Origin: Tetradesmus obliquus
Taxonomy: Eukaryota > Chlorophyta > Chlorophyceae > Sphaeropleales > Scenedesmaceae
Assembly: GCA_030272155.1 (NCBI GenBank)
Contig: CP126202.1
Location: forward strand, 3,183,501-3,247,500
Direction: 5' to 3'
DNA: 64,000 nucleotides
Part shown: in pieces, positions 15,235-52,500 of the stretch
Position numbering within the stretch: the first letter of the stretch is position 1
Layout of the letters: each line of letters starts with the position of its first letter
The notes under the pieces: generated by a model
Databases searched by the model: none
What the model saw: the letters and a program-made list of their open reading frames with translations, nothing else
What the model was told of the DNA's origin: nothing
Translations under genes and position numbers: made by a program

Positions 15235-17533
15235 CTTCGCCCCTGAAGGATACAGCAGGGCAGCAGCAGCAGCGGCCAGCAGCAAGGGGAGCGACACCGC
15301 CCCCTGCAGCAGCAAAGGCAGCAGGAGACGGCAGCATGCAGCAGCAGCAGGGCAAGCGCAGCAGGGGCGCGAGTGGCGCGGCGCAAGGCGGCAGCGGCGG
15401 CAGCGATGCAAGTCAGGCAGCTGGGGGTGCAGCTGCGTGGCAGCAGCAGCTGCCAGCACTGCAGCAGAAGCACCAGCAGGAGCTGGAGCAAGCCAGGCAG
15501 GAGGCCAGGTGCGGCCTGCTCTACTGCACTCAAGCGCAAGCATACTTGCTGCAGCTGAAGGCACTGCAGCGGGATTGCTAACAGCCTACAAGGCAACTGC
15601 GTGGCACATTGTCCCTGTCGTGATAGGATGCACAACACGCAGTGAGCTGCACACACATGCTGAGTGTGGTGCAGTCAAAGGCAGTGCAATCGAACCTGAC
15701 CCTGGCCGAGGGCTTGCAAGCACATTGTGCCAGCAATAGCTGCGCTTCTTTGCCGCCGGTAGCAGTGCTCTTTCATATACGGCACCAGGATCCTGCTGTT
15801 GCTCTTTCACAAACGTTCCCGCTTTCATCCATACTTTACTGTGCAGGCAGCGCGAGGGCCAGCTGTCTGATCAGCTGCTGGCCAGCCAGCGCCAGATTGA
15901 GGCGCTGCAGGGGCTGCTGGGCGCGGCAAGGTAAGCAGGCTGTGAGGATGTTTTACGCCTTCAGCTTTGACGTAAGTAGTGGCGCTGCTTGCGCTGTTGG
16001 GCGCAGGCTGCTGCAGACTGCTGCAGGCTGCTCAGGGGTCTGCACATCTGACTTGTGGCAAGCATGCTTGCACTCCTGCGCAAAAGATGAATTCACTGTG
16101 CACATTGTATACCGCAAGTAGACGTGCATCGGACCTCACAACCGAACCTACGTGCTTTCACACTTGCCAGCAAGCTACTGCTGGGCCTCCTTTATAATAT
16201 CGCACTGCAGTTGCTTCTTTCTTCACCTTACTTCCTGCCGCCATCGCTTGTGAAGTGCAGGTCCAGCAGCCAGGAGCGGGAGGGCGAGGTGCATGCGGCA
16301 GTGTCGCAGCTGGTGGTGCAGCTGGCGGTGGCGCAGGGCAACCTGTCACGGCTGCAGCTGTCGCTGGACGGCAGCAGGCTGGGCTGCCTGGGGCTGGCAC
16401 GCAACGGGGCCCTGGGCTTTGCAGAGGTATGTGTGAATGTATGTGCGTTTCATGATTTCCAAAAGTGTGTTTGTGGTTAAAGCAGTGCAGATATGTGCCG
16501 ATGGTAGCAGGCTGGGCTGCCTGGGGCTGGCACCCAATGGGGCGCTGGGGTTTGCTGAGGTGCGTGTGATTCATGTGGGCTTGCGGCTTCAGAACAGTGT
16601 GTTTGGTTTCCAGCAGCAGTGCATACGTGTGTTGATGGCAGCAGGCTGGGCTGACATGCAACGGGGACCTGGACCTTGCAGAAGTGTGTAGTGTGGCACA
16701 CTTGTGGCTCAACAGCAGCAGTGCCAATACAAGAGTGCGGCAGTCGCATGCAGGGATGCCTGCAGTCCAGTAAAGCGGCAGACAGCTGGTGGCACATGTG
16801 TTGTGCAAGCACAGCCGCAAGTGTGTGCTATTTGACTTCAAGTCTGCCAGCGTACATGACCATGCAATTAACACGCACTGCTGCTGCTGCTGCTGCTGCT
16901 GCTGCAGGTGTGGGAGGATGGCCCTGTGCTGCGCGAGCTGGCGGCGCGCAAGGCGGCGCTGCAGCGCTCACGCGAGGAGGTGGAGGCGGCACGCAAGGTG
17001 GGAGCAGCAGCAGCAGCAGAGCTGCAGCAGGCCTCCATCAGCACAGATAAATGACTTGGAGCAAGGACATTGGTCACCTTCCTTGAAATGTGTTTTATTG
17101 CTCTGCACCCGGTGAGCTGGTGTTAGGGTGGAGGACTGACCGATCGTTGTTCTGCTGCCCATGCAGGCTCTGAAGAAGCGGCTGCCTCCTCCACCAAAGG
17201 CCACCCTGGCGGCAGCAGCAGCGGCAGCAGCAGCAGCAGACGCAGCGGGCGTCGACGCAGCAGCCAGCGGCAGCGGCAGCAGTGCCGGCGCCAGCCAGTA
17301 CATCAGCTCAGCTGAGTATGTCATGCAGGACGAGATCCTCAAGGTGCGCTGAGCTGGACTCATTACAACACAGCGCATTGCAAATGAGTCAAGCGTCATA
17401 ATGCGTGTAACACATCAAAACACAGCTCAACGCATGCTTGATGTCCTTCCGCTGCCGCCACCAGCAGCAGGGAGTGCCTTCATCAGCCTATCACCCCATC
17501 CGTTGGCAATGCCTTGTTTCTTCTGCTTGACTC

Positions 17534-17596
<63 letters not shown>

Positions 17597-19019
17597 CCCA
17601 GGTGCGGCTGTCGGTGCTGCGGCGTGAGGAGGAGCTGCTGTCCAAGGAGGAGGAGCGCCTGGGCATGGACAAGATGCGCCACCTCAGGTGGGTGCAGGGG
17701 TCCAGGGTTCGATGCAGGCAGCTGATTTGTGCGCGTGGCAAGGAGGGCTCTTGCTTCCAGACCCAGCCGCTGCTGCATACCCACTTTGCTGCATACACAT
17801 CTGCGCTGCCTCTCCAGACGCTCATCAGCACATTCTTTGGCATTGGGCAGCTGACGTGGATGCGTGACAAGGATGTGGCCCCCCTCTGAAGCCACCGAAC
17901 AAAACTGAACTCCTGCCACTCCCCTGTTCATGCCCCACTGTCCACTGCTGCTGCAGGCAGCTGAAGCGGCTGCGTGACGAGGAGGGCAGCCGCTTTCAAG
18001 GGCAGCCGCTGCTGAACCGCCGCTACGTGCTGGCGGCGCTGCTGGGGCGGGGCGGCTTCAGCGAGGTGCACAAAGCGTACGACACACAGTCGCTCAAGTT
18101 TGTGGCCGTCAAGGTGGGTGTGGGTGGCTATAAGATGTCACTTATCAATTTGGTCTTGGTGGAGCGCTGCAGGTAGCTTGGTGCGTGTGTTGGCGAGGGC
18201 ATGTGCATTGATTGCTGCAGCGTTTTTTTGCAACTGTTGCGTGCTGCCAGTGAATGCTGAGTGGATGGTCAGCTCCACTGCGGCACTCATCTGTTGTGGT
18301 AGTCACTCGCCTGCCTGCGCCCTTCTCTGCTCACTCGTCTTCGCTGCATCGTGCCGGCCGCGGGGCTGTTGTATGCTATGGCTGCAGATCCACCAGCTGA
18401 ACAGCACCTGGAGCGAGTCGCGCAAGGCCAGCTACGTGCGCCACGCGGTGCGCGAGTACACCATACACAAGGCGCTGGCACACACCAACATCGTGTCACT
18501 CTCCGACATCTTCGAGGTGGGTTTCGTGCAACAGCAGTTTGAATGGGATGCACGTACATGTCGGTTTGTTTGTGCTACATCCACAGGGCGCTGGCGCACG
18601 CCAACATCGTGTCGCTGTCTGACATCTTTGAGGTGCTTGAGTTGTTGGCATGATGATGAATGAGATGCCTGGCGATAGATCTGCGTGCTTCAGCTGGGTC
18701 GACCTCTGTTCTGGCGCAAGCAAACATTGCCTCTCGTCAATTGCTAGCTGCGCAAATTATACCTGTGGAATTGTGGCTGCTCGGCATGCTTTGTTCAAGT
18801 CACAGTCGGTGGCGCGAGCTGTGCCTGCGCCTGTGCTGCTGCTGCTGTACCTCAGGTGGACAACACCACCTTTGCGACAGTGCTGGAGCTGTGTGAGGGA
18901 GGGGACCTGGAGGCACACCTGCAGCAGCACCACGTGAGTGAACTAGACTACACACATACTGTGGCACAACTGTTTCTTTAGGTGGTCAGCTGGCTGTCGC
19001 TTACCAGCTGCAGCGGCAA

Positions 19020-19054
<35 letters not shown>

Positions 19055-20610
19055 CAGGAGGACGCATAGCACAGGCTGCTTGCTCTGGATTTACCGGCAG
19101 CGGGATAAGTGCAGCTGCAGCAACACCATGCAGATCAGCATCACCCTGTTTAAAAGCAGCTGCTTGTGGTTGTGCTGCTGTGATGTGTGAGTTCTGTGCA
19201 CTTGCGCAGTGGTGTCAACAATCTTTGCGCCAAGCAACCTGACTCATCTGGTGCTTGACACTCTGCCGCTGCCTGTGTTACGCTGCACCTGTTCTGTCAT
19301 CAACAGACGCTGCCAGAGCGGGAGGCGCGTGCGCTCATCGCTCAGGTGTTTGCAGGCCTAGCATACCTCAACAGGGCGCCCAACAGCAGCAGTGGCGCTG
19401 GCGGGGAGGCAGGGTTTGGGCCGCGCGTGATCCACTATGACCTGAAACCTGCCAACATACTGTTTGACAGCCTGGGCACGGTCAAGATCACCGACTTTGG
19501 CCTCAGCAAAGTGAGCAGGCCAGCACAGCTGCTTTGTGGAGTCAGCTTATTTTTATTCACAAATGTGTCGTACAGTAACATCCTGCTTGACAGCCTGGGA
19601 ATATAGTCAAGATCGCACAGATCTCGGCCTGAGCAAGGTGAGCAAGCTGGTATCCACGGATTCGCCTTGCATAGAAGTATCTACAGACCTGCTCTGTTTC
19701 TTGGTCCAAATGCTTGGCAACTACGCCGATGTGATGTATACTGATGTGGGGTGTGTACTGTCGGCTCGCTGTATGCTGCTGCTAGGTTGTCGAGGACGGT
19801 CAAACTATGGGCATGGAGTTGACCAGCCAGGGGGCAGGCACCTACTGGTACCTCCCACCAGAGTGCTTCGCAGCAGGCAACAGCAGCAGCAACAACACCA
19901 TAGCAGCCAGCAGAGGAGCAGGCGGCCTCCTGCCACCTGGCATCCTAGGCAGCAGTGCAGCTGCTGGCGCTGCAGCAGGCGGTATGGGCGGTGTTGGAAT
20001 GCCTGCAGGAGCAGGAGCAGGACCCTCAGCAGGGGCCGGGGGTGCGCCCAGGATCAGCAACAAGGTTGATGTGTGGAGTGCTGGCGTAATCCTGTACCAG
20101 ATGCTGTACGGGAAGCGGCCTTTTGGCGAGGGGCTCACACAGGAGCAGATCTACAGGGACGGCGTGATGCTCAACGCGCGGCAGGTGAGGCTGCTGCAGT
20201 AGGTCATGCTTTGCTGTTCAAAGTTTGACCAACTTTGACCATGGTTGACCAAGCTTGACCAGCTGTGTGCTGCCGTCTGGCGCCTGCCCTGCTACTGCCT
20301 TGCACGCTAGAACACGCAAGCTACACCAGCAGTGGTATTAGTCAACAGAGCTGCAAACGCCTGCACGGAGTCACGCCCACACATACACAGACACAGACAC
20401 ACCTGCGCGCACTACTGACTCCAGCCTGTGCGTCTGGTCTGCTGCCTCTCTGCTGCTTCGGCTTCCTGCTCGCAGGTGCAGTTCCCCGCCAAGCCGTCTG
20501 TGTCTGCTGAGGGCCGCGCCTTCCTGTCACGCTGCCTGGCCTACAACCAGGAGGAGCGCTGGGACGTGCTGACAGCAGCAGCAGACCCATACCTGCAGCT
20601 CAAGCGCTAG
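13929..20610 (+). CDS. TSL/TLK: Tousled-like serine/threonine protein kinase, 13 exons
   Basis: Exons: 13929-14712, 15052-15508, 15847-15930, 16261-16426, 16908-16997, 17167-17343, 17602-17687, 17957-18113, 18388-18516, 18856-18933, 19307-19510, 19786-20184, 20476-20610; joined, about 981 aa. The N-terminal third is Ala/Gln/Ser-rich and disordered, with a basic SKRRKTGK stretch. The middle is coiled-coil and includes the Tousled signature SRLGCLGLARNG followed by VWEDGPVLREL. The kinase domain has GRGGFSEV (Gly loop), FVAVK (Lys), the plant-like IHQLNSTWSE, HYDLKPANILF (catalytic loop), ITDFGLSK and GTYWYLPPECF; it ends AADPYLQLKR. An insert of about 55 Gly/Ala/Ser-rich residues follows PPECF. 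In plants and animals this nuclear kinase phosphorylates the histone chaperone ASF1 and supports chromatin assembly in S phase. The first exon start is uncertain: an alternative ATG lies at about 14136. Confidence 0.93.
14985..15051 (+). repeat. 22-bp tandem repeat forming the 3' splice region of kinase intron 1
   Basis: Three units of GCAACGCCTTTTGCTGTTTG plus two bases, starting at 14985, 15007 and 15029. The last unit ends TTTGCAGG and supplies the acceptor of exon 2. The earlier units end TTTGCTG, one change away from a usable AG. Confidence 0.9.
15126..15149 (+). other. PCNA-interacting (PIP-box) motif in the Tousled-like kinase
   Basis: The codons read QTNISQFF, an exact match to the PIP-box consensus Q-x-x-[ILM]-x-x-[FY]-[FY], inside the disordered N-terminal region of exon 2. 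The motif would dock the kinase on PCNA at replication forks, which fits the S-phase role known for the family. That it works here is an inference. Confidence 0.6.
16500..16690 (+). repeat. Two exon-4 echoes in kinase intron 4
   Basis: 16500-16560 repeats the last 60 bp of exon 4 (GACGGCAGCAGGCTGGGC...) and its GAG|GT donor, 133 bp downstream. A third, broken copy lies at 16636-16690. The first echo keeps the reading frame: by hand I count six synonymous changes and one amino-acid change (Arg to Pro). Confidence 0.92.
16878..16904 (+). repeat. (CTG)9 directly before a splice acceptor
   Basis: Nine CTG triplets run into CAG|GTGTGGGAGG, the acceptor of kinase exon 5. The triplet tract replaces the usual polypyrimidine tract. 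Confidence 0.9.
17535..17594 (+). repeat. (CTG)20 directly before a splice acceptor
   Basis: About 20 CTG triplets are followed by CCCCCAG|GTGCGG, the acceptor of kinase exon 7. Confidence 0.9.
17717..17880 (+). repeat. Two decayed exon-8 5'-end echoes in kinase intron 7
   Basis: 17717-17775 (GCAGCTGATTTGTGCGCGTG... to CAGCCGCTGCTG) and 17848-17875 (GGCAGCTGACGTGGATGCGT) resemble the start of exon 8 at 17957. They lie 240 and 109 bp upstream. Both are out of frame or substituted, so this is an older, weaker example of the echo pattern. Confidence 0.65.
18587..18632 (+). repeat. Exon-9 3'-end echo in kinase intron 9
   Basis: This repeats the last 46 bp of exon 9 (coding ALAHTNIVSLSDIFE) 116 bp downstream. 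CCACAG precedes it and GAG|GT follows it. The copy codes ALAHANIVSLSDIFE: five synonymous changes and one replacement by hand count. Confidence 0.93.
19576..19637 (+). repeat. Exon-11 3'-end echo in kinase intron 11
   Basis: This is a copy of the sequence coding NILFDSLGTVKITDFGLSK with its GTGAGC donor, 127 bp downstream of the real one. It now contains a TAG and a frameshift, so it cannot code for the DFG segment. Confidence 0.9.
20224..20261 (+). repeat. Four TTGACC words with about 10-bp spacing in the last kinase intron
   Basis: AAGTTTGACC, AACTTTGACC, ATGGTTGACC and AAGCTTGACC follow one another directly. TTGACC contains the plant W-box core TTGAC. The position inside an intron and the helical spacing are notable, but a regulatory role is unproven. 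Confidence 0.7.
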
Positions 20611-21688
20611 CCGGCAGCAGCCAGCAGCTGTGCTGGCGCATGGCAGTGGGTCTCACGCCAAGGAGTGGCAGTAAGCTGGACACTTGGGAGGATTGTGCTT
20701 GTTTAGCAGCTGCTCCGTTGCTGGCTGCAGCAGCAGCGGTCTGTGCAAGCAGCCGTTGACATCATCAGCCGGAGGTCGAGGTGTATAGGTGTAGATGCAT
20801 GCGTTGGTTGATTTAGTGCTGTGTAGTGTCGAGCAGGTTGTGCCAACGGCGCATGGCGCAAGAGCCAGCTACAGGTGCGGCTCTGCAGCTGCCTTGTGCT
20901 GCTTGGGTTTAAGTTGCAGGTCTGAGGATGCGGCAGCGGCATGGCTAAAGACTGCTGCTGCAGGCCAGCTTAGGTGCATCTTGTGCTTCTGCTGTTACCA
21001 TTCGCCTCACTGAAAGTCCACGTGTGTTCAGCAGTGATACATATGTTTGTGATCCACAGCACGCAGTGTGGGCGCTGTCACTGGTTCAGCTCTTTCTTGG
21101 TTTGGCTGCCATTGTGCGGTCGTCATTGAGTTGCTTGCATGGTTCCTTTCAGTCAGGGGTTACATGCGCGAAGGCTGAAGCCTCATTTAGAAGCTTGTTC
21201 ATCCAGCCTAGCCACCACGTGGGCATCTCTCTTCAGATTGCTGTTGCTGCTGCTGCCTACATGCAGCTGTTTTGCAGAAGTGTGGTTCAGCCGCTTGTGC
21301 AACAGCCTTCATTATCATGTTAGCCATCAAGCCACAGCATCAAGGCCATCGGCCAACTTCTTGTGCAGCGGCCTTGACGTGCGTGCTGTGTGTGGCGGGT
21401 ACTCAGCTGGTAAACAGCATGTAACATTGTTTGTGGTGGGTACTTAACTGATCAACAACTTGTAACATTCACATGTTAGGGTTTTGGCGTTTGTATCTGT
21501 GATACTGCGTCTGCATGTGAGTCATCCCTGCCCTAAGGCGCGCACTCGCAGCAGCTGTCTTGCCACAAATCGTCAGCTTCTCGCTGACAGCTTTTTGCTG
21601 CCAATCACCGTTAGTCTCAAACCATCACTGGCCCTAGGTTGATACCATCGCAGGCAACACCTCGCCCGCGACAGGGCAGGCCGTCCAT
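20611..21688. other. Spacer downstream of the kinase gene
   Basis: No gene recognised. It holds the kinase 3' UTR. Two TGTAAC words, at about 21420 and 21462, resemble the green-algal TGTAA polyadenylation signal but lie 800 bp from the stop codon. A GCGGGTACT(T/C)A(G/A)CTG-like stretch is repeated near 21395 and 21437. Confidence 0.5.
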
Positions 21689-24600
21689 GTGCGATTGATC
21701 TTTCAAACGAGCATCCAAGCGTATTTTGCAAAGCCGAAGACGTTAGATGGAGGTTTCGAGCCAGCTTTGGTCGATGAGGGCATACCCACCTGCAAAGGTG
21801 TGCAACTGCAACAGCAAGGCCACTGCCTGGTTCACAAGGTGCAACCCTTGTTCAGTTTCATTACAGTGATTGTATGTTCTGCTGCAGGCCCGCAAGTACC
21901 TGTTAGAGGCCCCAGGTCGGGTCCTGGACTGGTTCTTGCTGGAACTGCAGCAACACCAAGATGCTGTCCTGCAAGCCATGCACCACCAGCAGCATCAGCA
22001 GGAGCACATCACAACGCTCCCAGTTCCTCAACCTCCCTCCCTGCAGCTGCTGCTGCGCATGGCAGCAGAGGCCAGCTGGGATCAGCTGCAGGAGCTGCTG
22101 CTGCGCCTTCTGCAGATCACAGCAGGACGGCGCAAAGACCCTCGCTACTCATCATCATCAGCAGCAGCAGCACAAAGAGAAGTAGAAGCAGCAGCAAGCA
22201 GCAGCAATGTGGTGGAAGGAGCAGCAGTAGCCATGTGCTACCTGTGTTGGTGTGCTGGACCACATGCGTACAGCTGTGGGCTCATCCTGTGCCAGCCACG
22301 TAGCAGGCAGCTGCTGCAGGATGCTTGCAGGAACAGCAGCAGCAGCTTTGTGGCAGCAGTCGCAGATGATCTGCTGAGCAGGCCTGTGGAGCAGCTGCTG
22401 CAGCCTGCGCTGTATGCCTTCCCACACCAGGTAGGGGCCGCGTACTGTGCTGTTACCCTTTAAATCCTAGTTCGGCTTCGGCTATGCAGGTAACTTTTTT
22501 TGCGGAGCAGATGAGTACAGCTGCAGGGCACATGCATGCTGCGCTGGCTTCGGCAGCAGCATGTCGCAACACTCACGGAATTGCCTGGTTAGCACTGCAC
22601 TTGAGGTTGGTAGCGGCAACCGACACAGCTGACGGTGGCTGCTGTGTCAACATATGCCTGCAAAAGAGCTTTGATTCTGTTGCCCATGCTGCCGTGAGGC
22701 CAAGCTGCTGACACTGCTGCTTTTTTGAATTCTTGCATGCACTGTATGCAGGTACGGCTAGCGATGATCGCAGATCCTGTGAATCTGCTGAAACTGCTGC
22801 TGAACCACCACCACCACCAAGCGCGGCAGCAGCAGCAGCGACGGCAGCAGTCGAGGGACGCAGCAGGTGCGGCAGCATCCCCGCCAAGGCCAGCAGCCTT
22901 GTTATTCTCATCAGCATATACAGCGGTCAGCAGCAAGGTCTGCAGCATCATGAAGGCAGCAACCCCAGCACAGCAGCAGCAGCTGCTTCACCTGCTGCTT
23001 CAGATAGCAGTTGATGCTGCAGCAGCTGGCAGCAGCAGCAGCAGCGAGCCCAGCGTGGCAGAAGCAGCAATGCTGGCAGTCGCAGCCATCAGCAAGATTG
23101 ACCCAGCAAGTTTGCATTAAAGTGTTGTGTTTCGCGTTCTAGCAACGCCCTACTGCCAGTGGATGCTTATGGAAGCACTGGCGAGCAGCAGCAGCAGTGT
23201 TGCGTGCGCCGCAGCAGCCACACTGACTGTCCTTTGGAATGGGATAGAAGTGAGTAGTGCGCTAGTTGCAGGTGTTCCAAGCTACGCAGCAACCCTGGAG
23301 CAGGCAGCAGAAGAGGTGCAACGCAATGGCAGGCTTGCAGCAGCTGCAGCACAACTCTGCTGGACTGCATCCAAGGCTGAATGCAGTGCAGCGCGCGACC
23401 TGCTGCTTCCCCATTCCCCTTCGCTGCTGGAAGCTGCGGCAAGTATCCTGTTCGTCAGTCAGCTGCAGCAGCAGCAGCAGCAGCAGCAGCACTGGACCTG
23501 CACCCCCAGCTTGAGGCCCGCCAGGTGTACAGCCTGGCTGCACTGTGCAACCTGCTGGGTGATGAGCAGCGCCCTGGCGTGCCAGCTGAGCAACTGCTGC
23601 CACCCGGCCAGCAGCTGCTGGAGGTGCTGCCTGGCCTGCTATGGCCTTGGCTAGATGGGGGCAGCCTCAACGAAGAAAACTATGAGATTGCACAGGTTGC
23701 TGCACTGCCGAAGGCTGCGCACTTGCTGCTAGGGCTGCTGCCGATGCTGTGCCTTGGTGCAGACAGCACACTGGCAGCAGCAGCAGCCGACGCACTCAGA
23801 ATTCCTAGCTTGAACGCAAAGGCGATGGTGATGGACCAGCTTGCATTCAATTTGCCTGAGGTGCTTCTATCCAGCAGCAGCGGCAGCAGCAGCGACACTG
23901 AGGCAGGGCCTTCCTGCAAGCAGCCGGCAGCATGCAGCAAGCAGACACAGCTACCCTCGCAGCAGCAGCAGCAGCAGCAGCAGCACATGCTGCTGGTGCA
24001 GCTGCTGTGCGAATGTGCGCCACCTGCATGGCGCCTTGGTTTCAGTAGGTGTGCATCAGATGCCGTGTGGGGTAGCTGGGTGCGAGCTGCGCCGCAGCCA
24101 GTGCTGCAAGCAGTCCTTTCAGAGCTGCTGCTGCGAGTCACCCGCGGCAGCAGCAGCAGACCTGAGCCTGGATCTGCCTCCGGCTATGCCAGCATTGCTG
24201 TCATCGCTCAAGAGAGTCTGAGGCTGTTGAAGTCATTGTGTATTCACTGCTTCTCAGCGCATCCAGCAGCAGCAGCTGTCCTGGCTGAGCCAGCCATCCT
24301 GCAGCAGCTGATGGCAATGCACCAGGGCTCAGACAGCCGGCTGCATAGCACTGCAGACAGCCTGCTTGCAGTATTGTTGCACCATTGGCCGCCAGCACAT
24401 GGATGGCAGCAGCAGCAGCAGCACCAGCACCAGCAGCAGTATGCGTCACAGGCGTTGCTCCAGATCCTTCAAAGCAGCTTGGCTGGTGAGCCGCGCTCCA
24501 TGCGGCTGATCAAGAAACTCACCAGCAGCAGTAATGGCATCAGCTGGCTGCTGCAACATGCTGCGCAGCTGACAGCACCTGCTGCAGCACAGCCTTGGCT

Positions 24601-27600
24601 GCAACCTGAACTGCAGCAGCAGCAGCAGCAGCAGCAGTTTGCTGGGCGTGTGTTTTGGGCTTCCAGCCTACTCTGCAGGCTGGCAAAGCATGACAGGCAG
24701 GCAGTGGCAGCCTGCTGCCAGCAGCTGCCTGGCTTCCTGCAGCGCTGGCTGCTTGGTCCAGCAATAGATGCACCTGCGGAGACTGCGGCGCCTGGTTCAC
24801 CTAGCGTGTTAGCACCAGCAGCAGCAGCAGCAACAGCGGCGGCGGCGGCGGCGGCGGCGGCTGCAGCAGCACCAGTTGATGGACTTGGACTTCAGGACAG
24901 CTGTAGCGTGCAGACCGCATCGAGGGACGACAGCAGCAGTGCAGTGGCGTATCTGCAGCTGCTGCTGTGCAGCGAAGTTGAGCCAGAGCAGGTGGACAGT
25001 CAAGAAGAGCAGCTGCGCAGTGCAGCTGAAGAGGCAGCTGCTGAGCTGCACCAGGCAGCCAAGGTGCAAGTGCTGCAGAGTTTTTACGGTACAGCCCTTG
25101 CAGAAGTGCTGGCAACTGCGCTTGGCTGGCAGCAGCAGCAGCAGCAGCAGCAGCTGGAGGAAGAGGAGTGCAGGACAGCAGCATTACATGCAAACAGCTG
25201 CGCAAACGGCAGCAGAGCACTGTTTGATGAACTGTTGCTTGTAATATGGCACACCCACACCTTCGGGGGTGCTGTTCAATTGTTCTTTACAGCAGCCGCA
25301 ACCGAGTGTGGTGCTGACGATCAGCTGCTCTGCCAGTTGGTAACGGCACCGCTGCAGCTCATCAGTGCTAGCAGCAGCAGCAGCAGTGGCTCCTGCATGG
25401 AGTGCCAGGAGTCAGGCTGCAAGCAGGCTTCCCTGGAAAAGCATGTGCACCTGGCATCAGCAGCGACAGTTGCAGTGAATGCGTTGTGCAGCGAGCTGCT
25501 GCTGCCAGGTGCACCAGCCCATCCAGTGCTGCTGTCTCTGCTCACACAGCAGGGACGCCTGCAGCAGCTGCTGCAGGTGCTGCTGCACTTTTGTACTACA
25601 GAGCAGCATCAGCAGCAGAAGGAGCAGTATGCAGGGGTTCAGCTGTTTTACCTGCTGTGGGAGGTGGAGGAGGTAGCAGCGCAGCCGCAGATAGCAGCAG
25701 CTCTGCAGCAGCTAGTGGCTGCAGCATTAAGGCAGGGGGATGCAGCAACATACACACTTGAGGTAGTGCTGGCAGGTGTTGCAGAAGCGCCAGCAGCCAG
25801 ACAGCAGCTGCTGCAGCACGCTGCTACTGCGCTGGCAGCAGTGCGGCCAGGGGCGCCTACCACGGCAGCAGCTGCAGGTGCAGCCTGGAGGTTGCTTAGC
25901 AGCATGTGTAACTGCTCGTATTCGTCGGACTTTGTGGAGGCCATCCTGCAGCAGGACTGGAGCTTCCTGCTGCAGGTGATGCTGGGAGAGCAGTGTGCGC
26001 CTGGCAGCAGCGCCTTGCTGACAGCAGCTACAAGTGCAGGTGCTCCTGCTGCTCCAACGCACGCAGCAGTGGTTGCAGCAGCAGCAGCAACGGCAGCATC
26101 GGCAGCTCCTGTTGAGCAAGGCTTGGGTGGTGACGCATCTACAGAGCAGCCGGAGGCATATGCTGCATGCTCAGCAGCACGTGTGGTGTCTGCCCTGGCA
26201 CGGCATGAGGCAGGCCGGCAGCAGCTGGCCACAGGACCAAACATCAGGGCGCTGCTGCTGGCAGCACTGCCGCCACACCTCAGACCCATGACAATAGGTG
26301 GCAGCAGCAGCGGCGGCAGTAGCAGGGGCAGCGGCACAGGTGGCGGTGCCAGCGGTGTTGTCTCAGGCAGCTGCAGTGCTGCTCTTGCAGGCAGCACCAG
26401 TGATGGTGACACAGCAGTGGCGGTACAGGGCAGCATGTCACCCGTTGCACCCGAATGTGAGCAGTGTGTGGGGCCTGACAACGGCGGTGCATGGTGCGAG
26501 GGAGTTGCAAGCTTGTCACTCAGAGTAGTTGAAAGCATCATGCAGGACGCGTCTCTGAGTGAGCCCTGCGAGCCTGGCCCTGCTGTCTTTGAGCACATCA
26601 GCCTGCTGCTGGCAGTGATGAGGATTCGGGGTGCATCGCTTGCTGTTTGCGCCGCTTGTGATCTGCTTATCAATGCATGGATAAAAGCACCAGAACAGGT
26701 GCTAGAGCAGGCCTGCTGCAACAGGCAGGTGATCGAGGAGCTGCTGTCGCTGCTGGAGTGGGCTGCCTGTAGAACCAATGACTGGTACTTTGTACGCCCT
26801 GCATACCATGTGGGTGCTGTGCTTATGTTTTGTGCTAGCAAGCCAGCAGGGTGCCAGGTGCTGTCGCAGCAGCACTGCTTTGATGCGCTGATAAGGGTGG
26901 TGCGTGACAGCAGCAGCAGCCAGGACGTTCGTGCGAGAGACTTTGTTGCTGTGTTAGCTGCTGTTGCAGACAAGCAGTGGCCACAAGCAGGTGAAGGGCA
27001 GGCCACTGAGCAGCAGCAGCAGCAGCAGCAGCAGCAGGCCGTGGTAGATGGCGCGCAGCCGCTGGTGCTGCAGCAGTGGCATGTGCAGTCGCTGGCAGAG
27101 GCGGTGCGCATTGCTTTTGTAGGCCATGTATGGCTGTCCATAGATGTGCTGGGGCTGTTGGAGCGCATTGTTTGCAGCAGCGTGGGCAGTGCACTGCTGA
27201 TGGCACCACGCGTACGCGCATTGTGCAAGACAGCGGAGCTGCCTGGCGAGCTGCAGCAGGTTGAGTGGCAGCAGGCACACCCACAGGACAATGGCTCTGT
27301 CTTGGGCAGCATGCAGACCCTGATAGACGCAGGGCCAGCAGTGAGGGGCGTTCTTCGCAGCATTGCTGGCAAGGTGCGGGCAGCCTATGCTGTTGTGCGC
27401 GCAGAGCGGCTGCCAGAGGCATGGTTTGAGCTGCGGGAGGCTGTGGTGCGCTTTGCTGCAGCCCTGTCTCGACTCAGCACTCGCAGGCATGCATTTGCTG
27501 CACACAGTGGTGGTGCCAAGCCGTGGGGTGGCCTGAGGTGTGGTGGTGGGGTGCAGGGCAGCGCTGCCGCAAGGCAGCAGTTGGCAAGTGCGCTTGACGC

Positions 27601-27661
27601 GCTGGCGGCTAGCAGCAGCGCTCACCACGGCTTGCAGCAGCAGTTGATGCGGTGCGAGTGA
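21689..27661 (+). pseudogene. Large Leu/Gln/Ala-rich helical-repeat protein, paralogue A, frame interrupted
   Basis: I do not recognise the family. Coding segments: a first exon at about 21689-21838, 21888-22430, then 22752-27661. The product is rich in Leu, Ala and Gln, has many regularly spaced amphipathic helices and CAG-coded Gln runs, and looks like an armadillo/HEAT-type solenoid of over 1,900 residues. Shared motifs with paralogue B: PPSLQLLLR, AAEASWDQLQELLLRLLQI, ARQVYSLAALCNLLGDEQ, FLQRWLLG. Two lesions are visible against B: codon 23118-23120 is TAA where the colinear B codon is GAA, and the frame shifts within the CAG tract at about 23466-23491. The remaining frame to 27661 is open for about 1,390 codons. 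The first exon has no ATG in frame. It is either a young pseudogene or a gene with sequencing or allelic errors. Confidence 0.65.
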
Positions 27662-37207: not shown

Positions 37208-37238
<31 letters not shown>

Positions 37239-42870: not shown

Positions 42871-45800
42871 CTACCGCCGTGCGGGTGCCTCTGCTGCTGC
42901 TGCAGCCGGCTTGGCCATGCCCACCATGAGGTAGTTGCTCTCGTCCTTGTAGTCTGGGAAGTAGTCCTGCAGCGGCACCTGCTGCAGCGGGCCTGCGCGC
43001 ATCGCCTTGAGGGCCAGCGCGGTGGCCTTGGCTCCCGCAATGGTGGTCACGATGGGCACCTGCGGAATACAACAAGTGCATTGTATGTACATCAGTAAAC
43101 AGTCACACAGGGGAATAGGCCTTTCCTACCGGTTGAAGGGTTGCGAAGTCATAACATGACATGCATCGCCGTGCCACAGACGGCTGCGCCAGCGCCAACC
43201 TGCACACCACGCACGTGCTGGTGCATCGCGCGGGGTGGAAACCCTGACTGTCACAGATGCAACACAACAACCCGACACAACCACGAAGCCCGCTTCACTT
43301 GCATGCTTACAAGTCAACTGCAAACTCTCCGTCAATGTCAACCGCACCTGCAGCGTCAGCGCGAGGCGGCGCAGGTCCTTGCCGTCGCGCAGGTCAGGCT
43401 CGTCTCCTCCGCTTGTGATCATCATCATGGTCACCTCGCCGTTCTTGAGGTAGTCCGCGGGGTTGGGGCGGCCCTCACTGATCTTGAAGATGCTCTCACA
43501 CTTGATGCCTGCGCGTGAAGAGTGAGAGTGAGGGAGAGGGGTGAGAAAAGCGGTGAGGTGTGGACGAAGAAGTGTGACGCGGTAGTTTCGCTGGCCTCAA
43601 TGCATTCACAATTGATAAATAAAACATAATATAAAAACGAGTGAGGGAGTATGACAGCATGGAAATAGGAGTGTGAGGATGCCAAAGGATGCCATGGGAC
43701 ACCAGCAGCATCGTGCTAAGGGGGAGTACAAACACATGACACAGGGCTCAGTCAAGCTCGCCGCAACAGATCGAAAAGTCTCCTGTTGAAAGTAACAACA
43801 TCCCGGCAACGCGCCTCACCTGCCGACATAAGTGTGGATGCTGTGCCGCGCGTGGCCACCACCTGGTAGCCCATGTCTATGGTACAACTAGCGCTTTGCC
43901 TTGTGTGGCCTTGCAACACCACTGACAGCTTGCCTCACCTGCCGACATCAGTGTGCTTGCTGTGCCTCGTGTGGCCACCACCTGGTAGCCCATGTCTGTC
44001 AGCTGCTTGGCGATGCCCACTGCATCAGCCTTGTACTTGTCGGCCATGGAGATGAACACCTTGCCTGCAAGCACGAAGGAACAACAGCAGCAGCAGCAGC
44101 AGCAGGTTGGCATGATGAGGGACATCAGCTGTTCACATTTTGAACTTCAATGCAAACACCATGCCTGCGGCTCTCACACAGCCAACTAAAAACACCAGCA
44201 CCAGCACCAGTTCAGCCAGCCCAAACTGTTGCACGCACTTGACATGGGCAGCTTCTGCGTCCTGCGGCGATCTGCGCCTTGGCGTAGCTGCTGCACCCGC
44301 ACATCCATGTGAGAATCACAAAACCAACACCAAACACACGCACCTGACATGGGCAGCTTCTGCCCTGCAGCGATTTGCGCCTTGGCATAGCTGGAGGCGA
44401 GGTCATAATCGATGCCCATGACCTCCCCGGTGCTGCGCATCTCAGGCCCACACAGCAGCCACCAAACAACCACGCACACAAACACAACTACCTACAAACT
44501 CAGCAGCTGCACATCTTTAAGCCACCCAACAAGGCAGCAACTTGCAGCCAAATGCGCTGCCGCGCACAGCAGGCCTGCACACAGCACACCATTTGCACAC
44601 ACCTGACATGGGCAGCTTCTGCCCTGCCGCAATCTGCGCCTTGGCGTAGCTGTTGCATCCGCACATCCATATGCGAATCACAACACCAACACCAAACACA
44701 CGCACCTGACATGGGCAGCTTCTGCCCTGCAGCGATCTGCGCCTTGGCATAGCTGCTCGCAAAGTCGTAGTCGATGCCCATGACCTCCCCGGTGCTGCGC
44801 ATCTCAGGGCCCAGCAGCGTGTCAGCGCCGGGGAACTTGTTGAAGGGCAGCACCACCTCCTTCACCGCCACGTGGCGAGGCTTCGGCTCCTGTGATGTTA
44901 TATGACAAGTTATAACACAGCAGCGCAAGAAAGCGGCTCAATTTGCCGTGTGTGTAATCACACACATTCTTGGTGCGAGCTGGAGAAGCAGAGTGCACAT
45001 AATGTGCCATATGTTACATGACATGTTATGTAACATGTCACAATTGCAGCAGCAGCCCACCTCAGTGAAGCCAATGTCCTTGAGTGTCTTGCCGGCCATG
45101 AGCAGGCTGGCATACTTGGCGATGGGGTGGCCCGCTGCCTTGGCCACGGATGCTTCATGTCACGCTGTGTGTTATCTGACGTGCTATGTAACATGATACA
45201 GCAGCAAGATTATGCAGCGCGGATTGGGTGCCTTACCTCAGTGAAGCCAATGTCCTTGAGTGTCTTGCCGGCCATGAGCAGGCTGGCGTACTTGGCGATG
45301 GGGTGGCCCACTGCCTTGGCCACGAAGGGCACGGTGCGGCTGGCACGAGGGTTGGCCTCAATGATGTAGGGCTGCTCATCCTGTGGAGTGTTACATATGT
45401 TGTTGTTGCGGCAGATGGCGTGCGGAGCAAGCAGCAAATGGACAGCAGTGCGCAAATGTCAGCGCTGACAGCTGCCTGGGAGAGCACAAGCTGCTTGCAT
45501 CATGTGTGTGACTTGTGCAGGCTGCTCCTTTCCACACATGCAGAATCTCCTCGATCATTGTGAATGTGCAAAGCAACATGTTACGCATGGGTGAGGTACA
45601 CGAATACACGATTAGCTCTTGTCTGCACAGCATAATCTTCAAACAGCAACAAACAGTATGCCGGAACAGTATGCGCCGCACCTGGATGGCGTACTGGATG
45701 TTGATGAGCCCCACCACGTTGAGCGCCTTGGCCACCTTGACCGTCCACTCGCGGATGGTGTTGAGCGTGGTGGTGGGGATGGTCTGCGTGGGAAGGCTGC

Positions 45801-48800
45801 ACGCGCTGTCGCCGCTGTGCACGCCAGCCTGTGTTCCAGGAGCAGCAGCAGCAGCAGCAGTAGCAGGGAATGTGAGTTGCGGTCGTTGATGCACTGCTTT
45901 GGCGGCGACAGCAGTGTGCAGTTGAGCTGGCGGACTAGGTGCGGCCAAGGCTCGCTGCCTGGTGCATGCAGGGCGCCAGTTGCACACTAGCAGGCATTGA
46001 CACCATACCAAAGCCGACGGCCAGGGCTGCCTCTGGGATAGCTGTAGCTCCACACCCCGTGAAATACCCACGTGCAATGCCTCTCGCAGGCTACCAGCAA
46101 CATGTGTCCGCATCACATGCATGATGGGACACGCCAGGCAAGAGCACAGCAATCAAGGCAAACCAAGCCCACGGTGCTCCATGATGACGAAAACCACAAT
46201 AGCAGGTGTTCATGAACATGCAGCAGCAGGCAAACCCTTAACAATGCACTGTGATGAGGTGCAGCCCAGTGAAGGTGGTCACCTGCTCGATGTGCTCCAT
46301 GATGCCGCAGACCACAATGTTGCCCTCCTGGTCACACAGCGCGTCCACGTCCAGCTCCACGGCACGGTCCAGGTACTTGTCCACCAGCACGGGGCGCTCA
46401 GGGTCAACCTCCACAGCAGTGGTGATGTAGCTGCAGGCGATGTGTTGTCGCGAGGTTGGTGAGTCAGCGGAGCAGCAACGTGCAGCGTGGCAGGGCAACA
46501 CCAACAGCGAGCGTCAGAAGCATGCCACGCCTGCAAGGGTTCAAGACAAACTGTCACAGCAGTTGTTTCATACTTTGACACCACCCCGCTCAAGCAAATT
46601 GGTTGTGTCACGGCACACTTGCAAGCAATGCTTGAATTGGGTCACATGATCCTACACATAAAACACAGTGGGCTATTGTACTCACGTCTTGAGCTCGTCG
46701 TCACTGTACACGATCTCCATTGCGCGGCCGCCCAGCACGTAGCTGGGTCGCACCATGACGGGGTAGCCCAGCGCGTGCGCCTTGTCAAAGGCCTCGTGCT
46801 CGCTGCGCGCCATGCCGCCTGCGGGCTGCTTGATGTCCAGCCGGGCCAGCAGCGCCATCCACCTGCAGCAAGACGATGCAAAGAAGGTTGAGCGCAGCGC
46901 CAATGATGTGGCACAACACGGATGTGCACAGACGGGGGGTGCGGGCTGCTTGACGATCCATACGCCTCCAACCCTCATCACACATCCTAAGCCGTGACCA
47001 CATGTCCCTGTCCTCGGCCTCGCCACTGGCATCCGGCTGCCCCGCACGCTCACTCAAACCAGCCCACAGGTTCCTAACCCTCACCCCGCATCCCAACACT
47101 GCCTGCCTCACCTGTCCCTGTCCTCTGCCTCATCAATGGCGTCCGGCTGTGTGCCCCACACCTTCACGTTGCCGTTGCCGCTGGCTGTGGGGATGGGGTT
47201 GTCGTCAAGGGCCTGCTGCAGCGCCGTGCTGATCTTGAGCGGCGTCTGGCCGCCAAACTGCACGATGATGCCCTCGGGCCGCTCCACCTCGATCACATTC
47301 AGCACGTCCTCGACTGTTATATTAGCAATATAACAACAAATATAACAGCACCAGAGTAACAGCAGGGTGAGTGGCGCGGCTCTGGGATAGACATGTGGAG
47401 ACAGCAGCGCTTGTCTGCAAGCTGGAAGCTGCATTTTGGCTATGTGCACCGACGCCAAGCACTGACCGCCGCAGAAATTGCTTTTGAGACCACCCCGCTG
47501 TACATCTGCTGTGTCCCCTGGATTCACACGCAGATGGGCTGGTCATCAAAGGCAGCTTGTTCCATCAAACAAAAGGCACAGCAAAGCAGCACAATGCCCT
47601 CACGTGTGATAGGCTCGAAGTAGAGGCGGCTGCTGGTGTCGTAGTCTGTGGAGACTGTCTCGGGGTTGCAGTTCATCATGATCGTCTCAAAGCCCTGGTC
47701 CCTGCAGCACCAACCACAACGCACAGACACACAGCGCACACAAAGCTTCAGCTTTCTGTGGCAAAGTGCGCAGCACCGCGCGTATGCAGCTAGCAAATGC
47801 AAGCTGCGCGCAGCTGCTGAGCAGCAATTCCATGCAGTCCTGCTGCCTGTAACAGTCTCAGCCAGCAGTTGCTAGCTGCAACACCCTCAGGGTCAACCGA
47901 TAAACACCTCACCCTGCTGCTGCTGCTGCAATCCCCAGTTACCCTCCCATCCCACCTGAGCGCGAAGGACGCGTGGCAGCAGCAGTAGTCGAACTCGATG
48001 CCCTGCCCGATCCTGTTGGGCCCGCCACCCAGAATGAGCACCTTGCGGTTGGTGGTTGGCGCTGACTCGCAGGGGCCATCATACGTGGAGTACATGTACG
48101 GGGTGTCGGCCTGCAGTGTCGCGGTTGAGGACGGCAAGAGTAACAGTTGGTTGACAAGGCAGTGGAGCAGGTACACTGTTGCTGACCAGCATGCTGGTGT
48201 GATGCTGTGCTGCTGCGAGGAGTTGTAACAAACAACCACACGCAGCGTGCGCAGCTGCGTTCTGTGGATCAATGAATGCCAGGTGCAGCCGCACCTGGAA
48301 CTCAGCCGCGCAGGTGTCCACGCGCTTGAAGCTGGGCACCACGCCCAGCGCCTTGCGGTGGCTGCGCACCGCCGCCGTGCTGCTGCCCACCAGGCGGCCG
48401 ATCTGTGCGTCGCTGAAGCCGCGGCCCTTCAGCTGGCGCAGCTCCTCGGCTGTCAGCTTGGACAGCTTCTGCTCGAGCAGCCACATCTGCGGATGCACAT
48501 GCAGCAGCGGCCAGCAGCAGTGCTTCAAAGGTAGCAGAAGGCATTGTGCAAGCAGGTATGCGGCAACCAGTGTCGTACTGCTGACATGTTGAGCTTCCAA
48601 GCTTCCAAGCTGCCAACCACAAAACCTTACAACCAGACAGTTGGTTTCTGCGAGCGCATTTCAGTCACGTGCAGCTCCTACACTATGGTGCTGCTGTTGC
48701 TGATGAGGAAAGGTCAAAGTTCCAAGCTGCCAATCATGAATCAATTTAATCTGTGGCGCACCTCGGTCATGTGCAGCTCCTCCAGCTGTGCCAGCCACCA

Positions 48801-49534
48801 GGGGTCGATGGCAGTCAGCTCAAACAGCTCCTCCTTGGTCATGCCGTCCTCAAACGCCTGTCACATAACATGTTATAACAGCGGCAGCAGGAGCAGGGTT
48901 CGGATCAGGCGCCAAACATCACACGGCAGTGAAAGAACCAAATATCAGGGGCAGCAGGTGGCCGTCCTTTATACCGCCCACTACACAAACCCCAAACCCT
49001 GAACCCCAAAGACCTAAAACCGCACCTGCTTCATGATGATCATGCGGTCGGGGTTTGGCACGCGCAGCTTGTACATGAGCTGGTCCTTGGGCAGGCGCTT
49101 GTAGCCCTTGGGCAGGCTCCAGCCGTCAAGCCCGGACTCCATGCCGCGCAGCGCCTTCTGCAGCGACTCCTGCCAGGTGCGGCCGATGGCCATGACCTCA
49201 CCCACGCTCTTCATCTGTGGCAGCAGAAAACCCATTCAGATGCAGTGGTTATGCAACACAGTTGGAAACGGCTACAGCTGCTGGATTCACCAACACAGCA
49301 CAGCACAGCACCGCCGCAGCGCTGCGTCGCAAGCAAGTTTGCATCCACAACCACACAGCACAGCCCCGCACCTGCGTGGTCAGCTCGGCCTTGCTGCCCT
49401 TGAACTTCTCAAAGGCAAACTTGGGGATCTTGGTCACGATGTAATCGATGCTGGGCTCAAAGCTCGCGGGCGTGGCCTGCGTGATGTCATTGGGGATCTG
49501 GTCCAGCGTATAGCCCACCGCAAGCTTTGCGGCC

Positions 49535-49566
<32 letters not shown>

Positions 49567-52500
49567 GGCGAGCGCGGAGGAGCGGGACACGCGCGGGTTC
49601 ATCTCGATGATCATCACCTCGCCTGCATGGAAGACGGTTGCATGTAGCATGTTTAGAGCGAGTAGAGCGGTGTGCAGGGATAGCTGCTGCACTGGCGGCC
49701 TGCCACACCAAGGGTTGCCGCCAGTGCTCGCCAGAAGCCGCGAAGACAGCTGCTTGCACAGGCGCAGCCCAACTTATGCTGGGTGCTGCTGCCCCTGCGG
49801 CAGTTGCTGCTGCTGCTGCTGCTGCACACCATTCTGCTGCCGCTGCTGCTGCGGCATCAGCCCTGCTGCTGCTCACCGTCCTCGGGGTTGACGGCCATTT
49901 GCACGTTGCTGCCGCCGCACTCCACGCCCATCTCACGAATGATGGCCAGGCTGGCATCACGCAGCCGCTGGTACTCCTTGTCAGTCAGCGTCTGCGCAGG
50001 GGCCACTGCAAAGCGCGAGAAAAGCGGCGGCAGCAGCAGCAGCAACAAAGCAGCAAAAACGGTCAGGCATGATAATGGAATTTTGTCTGCAATGCAGCCT
50101 AGTACTCCCTGTCAGTGAGCGTCTGCGCGTCACTGCACAGGGGCACCCATGGCGGCAGCAGCACCACCAGCAGCAGGTACTGGCATGCAAGCGTATGTCG
50201 CACAGGCCCAAGTGTGCATCTTGCCGCACCCTTCAGCGTCCTAACAGCAGCCGCCACAATTGGGCAGCAGGGAAGCTGTGGGTTGCGTGCACAGCTGCAG
50301 AGCCCAGCCCATTCCAGCAACCCCCTGGCACATTTCAGTGTTTGGGCTGAAGGAGCAACGGCTCACCCGTGATGGAGTCTCCCGTGTGCACACCCATGGC
50401 GTCGACGTTCTCGATGGAGCACACAATCATGCAGTTGTCCTTGAGGTCGCGCATCACCTCCAGCTCAAACTCCTTCCAGCCGATGAGGCTCTGCTCCACC
50501 AGCACCTGCAGGCACATGACATTAGATGGCACAACAGATTGTTGTGAGTATGGGTGGTTGAGAGTTACTGAACGGGCATCACCTGCAGCTCAAAATGGGT
50601 GGTTGAGAGTTACTGAACGGGCATCACCTGCAGCTCAAAATGGGTGGTTGAGAGTTACTGAACGGGCATCACCTGCAGCTCGAAATCCTTCTAGCCGATG
50701 AGCGATTGCTCCAACAGCACCTGCAGGATGTACAAACCAATGCAGGCAGTGATGATGTTGTGAAAAAGGCAATGCACAGCGCACAGCTCAAACCTCTTCC
50801 AGCACATGCAGACATCAGCAAGAACAAGCAAGCATGGCAACAATGTTTGCAGTTGTTAATCACGCCGTTCTGTTGCTGGAAGTACAAACCATAGCGCAAA
50901 CTGTCACTTACACCCACCTGGTTTGTCACTGACGCGTCAATGCCAGCCTCCACCTGTGCGATGAACTGCTCCCTGTTGTAGCTGATGCCACCTCCCGTGC
51001 CCCACACACGCCCCCACCAAAAATCACAACATTTGTTACTAACCCATTGTCACTAACGCACCTGGTCTGTCATTGACGCGTCAATGCCTGCCTCCACCTG
51101 CGCAATGAACTGCTCCCTGTTGTAGCTGATGCCACCTCCCGTGCCCCACACACGCCCCCACCAAAAATCACAACATTTGTTACTAACCCATTGTCACTAA
51201 CGCACCTGGTCTGTCATTGACGCGTCAATGCCTGCCTCCACCTGCGCAATGAACTCCTCCCTGTTGTAGCTGGTGCCGCCGGCAGTGCCCCACACACGCC
51301 TTCACCAAATACTACAACATTTTTTACTAACACATTGTCACTGACGCACCTGGTCTGTCATTGACGCATCAATGCCGGCCTCCACCTGTGCGATGAACTC
51401 CTCCCTGTTGTAGCTGATGCCGCCGCCAGTGCCGCCCAGGGTGAAGGCCGGGCGGATGATGAGCGGGTAGCGCCCGATCTCTGCTGCAATGGCCAGCGCC
51501 TCCTCAATGTTGCTGGCGGTGCCGCTGCAGCAATGCAATGAATATGCAGGAAACAGCAGGGCAAAGTAGCAATCGACGAAGTGATGAAAGAGTATTGCCC
51601 GATCTTCGCCTGCAATGGCCAGGGCCTCTTAATGTTGCTGGCGGTGCCGCTGTAGTAATGAAAGCACGGGAAGAGCAGGGCCAGGATCAGGATACATGAT
51701 ATGTGCCAGCACGTTTGCAGCAGCAATCCAACGCCGTCGCCTTCCTGACAGTGCCGCTGCAGGCGAAATCTGTTCAGCTTGGTGCAGCCAGCTGCCTTGC
51801 CTTGCACGCTGCTGCAGAACCAAAACTTATGTTCGTTGCCAGACGCAGTGTGGGCAACGCCAAAGCAGCAGCAAGAACGCAGTTTTGCTGCCTCACACCT
51901 TAGGGGCGTTTTGAGCCCGATGCGCTTCATGGCCTGCTTGAACAGCTGCCGGCCTTGCCTCAACGGCTGCTATATAACAAATGCATTGCACAACACGACT
52001 CAAAGCAGCAGCAGCAGGAGCAGCAGCAACACCAGCCTCACCTGGGCGGCGTCTTGAGCCCGATGCGCTTCATGGCCTGCTTGAACAGCTCGCGGTCCTC
52101 CGCCCTGTCGATGCTGGGCAGCTTGGCCCCGATCAGCTCCACGCCGTACTTGTCCAGCATGCCGCTCTCAGCCATGTTCTTGGCCAGGTTGAGCCCTGTC
52201 TGGCCACCCATGGTGGGCAGGATGGCGTCAGGACGCTCCTGCGCAAGTGGACAGCAAAAGACGAGCAACAACGAGACAAGCATGTCAGCACTGTTTTATC
52301 TGCTTGCTTCCGCCTGTTGCGGCATACCACACATACTACTGAATGCATTGCTGCGGGGAAAGCAAGACAACAAGCCACCCGGTCAAGGCTGCCAGACCAC
52401 AGCACCAGTCCAACGGCTGGCAGCTGTTCAAAAAACGTGCACAACAACAGCAGTGTGCTCACCAAGCAACGGCTGCTAGGTGTGAAAGGCGCACTTCTCG

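Follow-up and report, generated by a model that had tools for sequence, protein, structure and literature searches.

Coding-like divergence of intronic exon-edge copies in the green alga Tetradesmus obliquus

The window analysed here, a stretch of 64,000 nucleotides of Tetradesmus obliquus (contig CP126202.1, positions 3,183,501 to 3,247,500), harbours two genes whose models have complete open frames and introns of the GT-AG type, with Pfam matches to Pkinase and CPSase_L_D1/D2: a kinase gene, which we take to be Tousled-like (TLK), and the CPSase large chain gene. Introns of both genes carry copies of the donor-side or acceptor-side edge of a neighbouring exon, designated echoes (Table 1). 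At the TLK exon 4 echo starting at 16500, a longer alignment extends into the intron as far as 16653.

Table 1. Genes, host exons and echoes in the window, with changed codons of each echo relative to its exon (synonymous:replacement).
Feature	Position	Strand	Syn:repl	Remarks
TLK gene	13929-20610	+		13 exons, gene model
TLK-like exon 4	16261..16426	+		gene model
Exon 4 donor-side echo	16500..16559	+	6:1	60 nt of exon end + GTGCGT
Exon 4 second donor-side echo	16648..16689	+	1:5	decayed
TLK-like exon 9	18388..18516	+		gene model
Exon 9 donor-side echo	18578..18635	+	6:2	
TLK-like exon 11	19307..19510	+		gene model
Exon 11 donor-side echo	19577..19647	+	6:3	4 alignment gap positions
CPSase large chain gene	54082-42871	-		23 exons, gene model
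CPSase exon 21	43939..44064	-		gene model
Exon 21 donor-side echo	43813..43878	-	4:0	serine AGC>TCC
CPSase exon 20	44706..44889	-		gene model
Exon 20 nearest donor-side echo	44596..44652	-	3:0	
Exon 20 longer donor-side echo	44337..44459	-	6:1	alignment 44229-44459; serine AGC>TCC
Exon 20 third donor-side echo	44232..44292	-	2:0	2 gap positions
CPSase exon 19	45237..45380	-		gene model
Exon 19 donor-side echo	45059..45148	-	1:1	identity 97.8%; other donor context follows
CPSase exon 15	47112..47313	-		gene model
Exon 15 donor-side echo	46970..47039	-	2:2	decayed
CPSase exon 7	50367..50505	-		gene model
Exon 7 acceptor-side echo	50663..50727	-	3:5	contains stop; serine AGC>TCG
CPSase exon 6	51350..51524	-		gene model
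Exon 6 donor-side echo 1	51192..51289	-	4:2	
Exon 6 donor-side echo 2	51048..51145	-	7:1	51062 in the preliminary description; mosaic
Exon 6 donor-side echo 3	50902..51001	-	5:3	
Exon 6 acceptor-side echo	51582..51663	-	2:4	decayed
CPSase exon 5	52042..52238	-		gene model
Exon 5 donor-side echo	51896..51947	-	2:1	
CPSase exon 4	52851..52937	-		gene model
Exon 4 donor-side echo 1	52708..52755	-	1:0	within 178-nt repeat unit 52578-52755
Exon 4 donor-side echo 2	52579..52625	-	1:0	

A preliminary description had found five of these echoes to differ from their exons mainly at synonymous sites. The recount returned identical figures for the echoes at 16500 (6:1), 43820 (4:0) and 51062 (7:1); for those at 18587 and 44344, both given as 5:1, the synonymous excess stood and the exact counts did not (6:2 and 6:1), the sum being 29:5 instead of about 27:4. 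The serine AGC switch also held, towards TCC in 43813-43878 and 44229-44459 and towards TCG in the acceptor-side 50663-50727. The five echoes were a favourable pick among the 23 exon-intron copy pairs listed for the window genes, others including 17713 (3:7), 17846 (0:4) and those starting at 16648, 46970, 50663 and 51582 (Table 1). Taking only the nearest echo of each of 12 exon sides, the window gives 40:21 (66% synonymous; ten donor-side echoes 35:12, two acceptor-side echoes 5:9), which is still well above the 35-39% obtained when neutral decay beside a constrained exon is simulated.

Mainly synonymous divergence is not local to the window. Echoes occur genome-wide, with 72 exon sides carrying them in 200 kb of another contig, and the survey sample of 142 exon sides joined this stretch with several chaperonin genes and the window genes. 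HSPs shorter than 35 nt or below 50 bits, low-complexity HSPs, exon overlaps below 24 nt and hosts below 45 nt were dropped, as were copies overlapping a longer predicted exon, exon-interior copies and copies in an unexpected direction; the main counts exclude five duplicate echoes (3 exon sides) from the overlapping loci L032/L033 and L030/L036. For exons other than those of TLK and CPSase we relied on a home-made finder, for which these two genes served as the training set. Its predicted host exons in the chaperonin regions include at least three that are echoes in their own right (L038 4775-4866; L039 3675-3768 and 6774-6837), so that some chaperonin pairs compare echo with echo.

Nearest echoes in this sample showed 401:252 synonymous to replacement codons, that is 61% synonymous against the simulated 35-39%, bearing out the earlier argument that plain neutral decay is incompatible with the excess and that most divergence was gathered under coding-like constraint. 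The ratio of divergence at codon positions 1+2 to that at four-fold sites was 0.210 (bootstrap 95% 0.18-0.25), compared with 0.53-0.57 in simulated neutral decay, and 31 gaps were seen in the copied exon parts where about 121 were expected. Replacement, indel and splice-site changes did not proceed at the neutral rate of an intronic pseudo-exon. Higher mutability of third positions was rejected as the cause, since neutral context rates were equal across codon positions (0.117-0.118 each).

The splice sites of the echoes are likewise preserved. Among 62 curated donor-side echoes, exon and echo share the base at donor positions +1 to +4 in 62, 61, 55 and 36 cases and at +5 to +8 in 54, 29, 21 and 21 cases, consensus bases being retained while degenerate donor bases drift; GT is present in 59 of the 62, and AG in 45 of 48 acceptor-side echoes. 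The median echo splice score was 6.3 (58 curated pairs), with medians for the real sites of 7.3 (donors) and 6.6 (acceptors); these scores, like the unit sizes and intron-part alignments given below, cover L038-L041, the window genes and C1. Coding-like constraint is stronger towards the splice site, the ratio being 0.12 in the part adjoining it and 0.25-0.30 in the outer three fifths. Far-to-near divergence was 1.58 (1.23-2.06) at positions 1+2 and 1.02 (0.78-1.35) at four-fold sites (P 0.010). Within the first 30 nt, positions 1+2 diverged at 116/2440 where the homology was below 60 nt versus 51/1862 where it was longer (p 0.0008), third positions showing no difference.

The copies are directly oriented, usually in units of 100-150 nt, and the intron parts are alignable as tandem homologues in 68 of 127 pairs. 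Single exon sides carry up to six echoes, with graded divergence among the copies of an array. The array of CPSase exon 6 has a block mosaic structure, in which sites on the left join the exon with echo 1 and sites on the right join it with echo 3. Of the 18 arrays with at least three echoes, 9 were testable, and 5 of these contained incompatible sites, as did 17 of 44 pairs, a pattern showing that some copies recombine. Changes that set the exon apart from every one of its echoes fall almost exclusively at third positions (positions 1:2:3 = 6:4:48 and 5:3:26; the 29 curated arrays have 10 such changes at positions 1+2 and 48 at third positions), whereas those confined to a single echo come much nearer to neutral. 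In the same 29 arrays, third-position change amounted to 48 on the exon branch versus 15 on the nearest echo, and part of the synonymous excess is located on the exon side.

The preliminary description had proposed, besides constraint, two sources for it that found no support here: current use as alternative exons and derivation from a paralogue. At their inner ends, donor-side echoes showed no excess of acceptor-like signals (15/74, control 102/370) and acceptor-side echoes none of donor-like signals (2/68, control 7/340). Unit-skipping AG/GT pairs were not in excess either (29/142, role-exchanged control 31/142), and splice sites flanking a copy on both sides, as in cassette or mutually exclusive exons, were not found above control level. 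With signals at control level, cassette and unit-skipping use were rejected; read-through from exon into echo was rejected because unit lengths show no excess of multiples of 3 (21/75; mod 3 = 21:23:31). There seems to be no ordinary splicing route able to bring echoes into protein, and therefore something unusual kept them intact. As for a paralogue, searches of the alga's own genome with a TLK stretch revealed no second TLK locus, other matches being to the simple repeat end of the stretch, and a CPSase exon 6 stretch matched only itself and its adjoining echo; this source was rejected for these two stretches. No relative for polarising the changes emerged from a protein scan of viral contigs that used a 100-residue piece of TLK. 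Descent from diverged alleles, also suggested in that description, is possible.

The explanation that we favour, tentatively, is that an exon edge and its echoes may form one recombining pool, in which echoes once served as the functional edge or could take on that role again. Echoes would originate when an exon edge is duplicated locally in tandem, the unit comprising the last or first 40-100 nt of the exon, the splice site and some intron; if the outer splice site is still used in splicing, the copy ends up inside the intron. Exchange among exon edge, echoes and other haplotypes would then let copies enter and leave the functional slot, a prediction of such exchange of exon alleles being excess third-position change on the exon branch. 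Recombination between exon edge and echo would delete the intervening unit, the outer part of the echo with its own splice site becoming the new edge. Much of the divergence might thus have arisen while both copies were functional edges on different haplotypes; in addition, a broken echo could be a hazard that selection acts against, because collapse or conversion involving it would disrupt the gene. Collapse predicts the observed gradient because the stretch adjoining the splice site is nearly always retained. The stronger reading, that thousands of non-coding exon-edge copies are held coding-like by selection for safe collapse, since an echo recombining with its exon must stay fit as an exon edge at any time, is rather unlikely. 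Both versions would need high diversity, the pool requiring a very diverse population. Gene conversion from the adjacent exon alone cannot, by reasoning, yield a ratio of 0.21, because silent differences would be erased at least as fast as replacement ones.

The most serious competitor, although unlikely, is a direct role in RNA, whereby an unrecognised splicing step, such as stepwise or nested intron removal or exon-edge exchange in RNA, would make use of the echo splice sites together with their exon context. Unusual population diversity would then be unnecessary, and the retention of consensus next to drifting intron bases and the near-authentic splice scores would be accounted for. However, inner ends, unit-skipping pairs and frame offer no ordinary route, a pure splicing role would not favour positions 1 and 2 over 3, and echo-private changes in arrays are near neutral. 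Like stwintrons and nested introns, echoes have splice sites within a larger intron, but the inner site does not seem to break up any splice element, and that model does not include coding constraint.

Somewhat less probable is an origin of the tandem copies between haplotypes that had diverged strongly, followed by neutral evolution, the echoes being unselected. The few replacements, the preserved splice consensus and the length of the exon branch are consistent with this origin alone, as is the rarity of near-identical intron and intergenic duplicates (4 of 54 below 2% divergence, 27 of 54 at 6-14%). Yet it requires silent diversity of around 0.1-0.2 and leaves the gradient towards the splice site unpredicted. 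If the changes at positions 1+2 were later neutral decay, the roughly 121 exonic gaps would be expected, of which about a quarter were seen. An assembly artefact, in which the merging of at least two diverged haplotypes would have strung the exon edges of one into the introns of the other, is improbable: the exon-echo divergence does resemble that of two functional gene copies, but arrays of up to six echoes, their graded divergence and the tandem homology of intron parts speak against it.

In tandemly duplicated mutually exclusive exons, two similar coding stretches lie near each other, both under coding constraint. Exon and echo share these features, and the echoes are open, frame-conserved and equipped with a splice site, several having been called as exons by the home-made finder. 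Use as alternative or mutually exclusive exons is nevertheless very unlikely, as echoes are partial exons that have a single splice site and stand in no frame relation to the host exon, and inclusion would repeat 15-50 residues in conserved enzymes and chaperonins. Plain neutral decay, with constraint on the exon only, fits some echoes (16648, 17713, 50663) and the D12/D3 of 0.49 in nearest echoes with less than 45 nt of homology, but the synonymous excess, the low ratio and the missing gaps exclude it for the set, and as a general account it is hardly credible.

Local tandem duplication is reported to create a new intron or exon in ATP2A1 and potato RdRp (PMC4974935) and in Drosophila cases (PMC2891723). 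Echoes resemble these cases in that the duplication covers coding sequence or an exon-intron boundary, the copies bear splice signals and one ends within an intron; they differ in that the outer splice site stays used with no new intron, and the intronic copy retains its conservation as coding sequence. No published account of such exon-edge echoes appeared among the matches listed in searches of PubMed Central, the only source used, which does not prove absence.

If 200 kb is typical, the 72 exon sides found there extrapolate to about 38,000 in 104.7 Mb. Coding-like substitutions together with good splice sites do not here mark used exons, which breaks a rule of thumb, and gene finders and protein-domain searches will mistake echoes for exons. 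If the safe-collapse reading were true, selection would act on DNA neither translated nor required in RNA. Echoes make it testable whether recombination with a neighbouring copy can put untranslated DNA under coding selection, and likewise the rate at which duplication and collapse replace exon edges.

The echoes first described, which are partial intronic copies of the end of a neighbouring exon together with its splice site, all fall in the TLK and CPSase genes, where aligning the sequence locally with itself, in the established reading frame, recovered 23 exon-intron copy pairs. For five echoes the preliminary description had stated about 27 synonymous to 4 replacement codon changes relative to the exon (27:4); the recount gave 29:5 (6:1, 6:2, 4:0, 6:1 and 7:1), and the claimed serine codon switches proved genuine. 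These five are the most favourable cases among the copies in the two genes, which elsewhere contain decayed ones (1:5, 3:5 with a stop, 3:7 and 2:4). Taking the nearest echo on each of 12 exon sides, the ratio was 40:21, to which ten donor-side echoes (copies of exon 3' ends) contributed 35:12 and two acceptor-side echoes (copies of exon 5' starts) 5:9.

Main features of the window and of other Tetradesmus obliquus loci (unlabelled positions are window coordinates)
Feature	Location	Strand	Description
Window	G000:C12:3183501-3247500		genome G000: 104,662,953 bases, 17 contigs, G+C 56.6%
Tousled-like kinase gene (TLK)	13929-20610	+	13 exons; hand-built model, complete open frame, Pfam support
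CPSase large chain gene	54082-42871	-	23 exons; hand-built model, complete open frame, Pfam support
Chaperonin-set locus L040	L040, 4707-4938		extreme case; four donor-side echoes against the exon, 10:1, 9:0, 7:0, 6:0
Satellite array	77-10,800 (about)		unit 178-180 nt, about 60 copies in family listing; several sub-types in alternation, 62-100% identity
Dense CCACAACG / CGTTGTGG words	12905-13340		both orientations; by eye resembles a small inverted-repeat element
45-nt unit	50448-50727		near-exact repeats at 50550-50686, in the interval separating CPSase exon 7 from its acceptor-side echo; includes AC of acceptor region
Local tandem duplication	62995-63721		369 nt, 73% identity, outside TLK and CPSase
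Cpn60_TCP1 Pfam matches	G000 C16:4172823-4173294		three successive; profile ranges 42-69, 38-71, 40-101
DEAD-box matches	G000 C2:8541825-8541992, C2:8545417-8545584		equal scores, separated by 3.6 kb; a recent gene duplication is probable

Echoes are a genome-wide phenomenon. On contig C1, a run of twenty contiguous 10-kb stretches was analysed with a gene finder trained on TLK and CPSase; at least one echo was present on 72 exon sides, with 36 each of the donor-side and acceptor-side kinds, and many more occurred in four chaperonin (TCP1/Cpn60) regions and eight additional chaperonin loci. The overlapping profile ranges on C16 indicate that the Pfam family search itself picks up acceptor-side echoes. 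After removal of five double-counted echoes, the final set comprised 142 exon sides and 221 echoes, divided into a curated subset (chaperonins, TLK and CPSase; 70 sides, 110 echoes) and the C1 subset (72 sides, 111 echoes).

Nearest echoes of the whole set gave 401:252 (curated 224:112, C1 177:140), a synonymous share of 61% against 35-39% (sd near 0.016) in a neutral simulation where the echo drifted freely and the exon took synonymous changes only. Divergence was 0.0444 at codon positions 1+2 and 0.2119 at four-fold sites, a ratio of 0.210 (0.18-0.25, bootstrap over exon sides) versus 0.53-0.57 simulated. Both measures reject neutral decay as an account of the set, as the preliminary description had argued for its five echoes. 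Unequal mutability is ruled out because the context-based expected divergence, from intron and intergenic duplicates, is equal at the three codon positions. Moreover, the copied exonic parts held 31 gaps in 13,166 nt, where about 121 were expected given the ratio of gaps to substitutions in introns and the position 1+2 changes of the echoes themselves in the same alignments. Echoes varied among themselves by more than chance would produce (chi-square of 193 over 140 echoes, with 139 under the null and sd 14): they are a mixture, some dead and some very well kept.

The further suggestion that echoes serve as alternative exons was not supported. Acceptors at the start of tail (donor-side) echoes (15/74 vs 102/370 in controls) and donors at the end of head (acceptor-side) echoes (2/68 vs 7/340) were not enriched, and splice pairs joining the upstream-copy donor to an acceptor at the downstream homologous place, which would allow exactly one unit to be spliced out, numbered 29/142, versus 31/142 with roles exchanged. 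Unit lengths of gapless nearest pairs left remainders 0, 1 and 2 (mod 3) in 21:23:31 cases, and inspection of boundary sequences by eye found no common motif. Echoes are not exons in the usual sense.

Changes could be assigned to branches in arrays with at least two echoes (29 curated, 23 C1). Those separating the exon from all echoes fell at positions 1:2:3 as 6:4:48 (curated) and 5:3:26 (C1), compared with 4:9:15 and 11:7:21 for changes private to the nearest echo and 27:18:39 and 17:18:27 for the farthest. The exon branch is thus long and almost purely synonymous, and the branches leading to single echoes come much nearer to neutrality. This pattern argues against echoes being under strong selection today and in favour of the functional exon edge having been exchanged.

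Constraint weakened with distance from the splice site, the positions 1+2 to four-fold ratio by fifths outward being 0.12, 0.14, 0.26, 0.25 and 0.30; the increase from near to far was 1.58-fold (1.23-2.06) for positions 1+2 and 1.02-fold (0.78-1.35) for four-fold sites (P 0.010). In nearest echoes of the full set, stronger constraint accompanied longer homology, with divergence at positions 1+2 relative to position 3 of 0.49 below 45 nt, 0.33 at 45-60, 0.22 at 60-80 and 0.20 above 80; the curated genes alone were non-monotonic over these classes (0.24, 0.33, 0.20, 0.22). Within the first 30 nt alone, echoes with homology under 60 nt diverged more than those with longer homology at positions 1+2 (116/2440 vs 51/1862, p 0.0008) but did not differ significantly at third positions (191/1219 vs 160/931, p 0.35). 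No trend linked inter-copy distance to constraint. The CPSase exon 6 array is a clean mosaic: at four left-hand sites the exon groups with echo 1, and echoes 2 and 3 group together, whereas at two right-hand sites the exon groups with echo 3, and echoes 1 and 2 together. Among the 18 arrays that had three or more echoes, nine had a testable site pair and five of these contained incompatible pairs (17/44 overall), part of which could stem from recurrent mutation.

The best account on offer, to which we give slightly less than an even chance, is that exon edge and echoes form a single recombining pool. Two versions share this idea. In one, divergence would have arisen on functional edges in different haplotypes that were brought together afterwards, as favoured by the long exon branch; in the other, selection would remove echoes whose collapse would break the gene, as favoured by the gradient, by the shortage of gaps and by the effect of homology length. 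From the 0.21 ratio and an assumed exon ratio of 0.05, we estimate an echo nonsynonymous rate of about 0.37 of neutral, which would imply selection of only about 1-3 in 2Ns units. The chief weakness of the recombining pool is the diversity required: if collapse is how echoes are lost, their average age would by our estimate imply silent diversity near 0.1 or more, far higher than the approximately 0.0021 per base reported for C. reinhardtii (PMC3405113).

None of the papers listed by our literature searches described intronic exon-edge copies that retain splice sites, show coding constraint and affect a large proportion of exon sides. Intron origin through tandem duplication is already known, and in the cases described (PMC2891723, PMC4974935) the duplicate itself becomes a new intron or exon. 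Unlike these, the copy in T. obliquus remains intronic, keeping working-looking splice sites and coding constraint.
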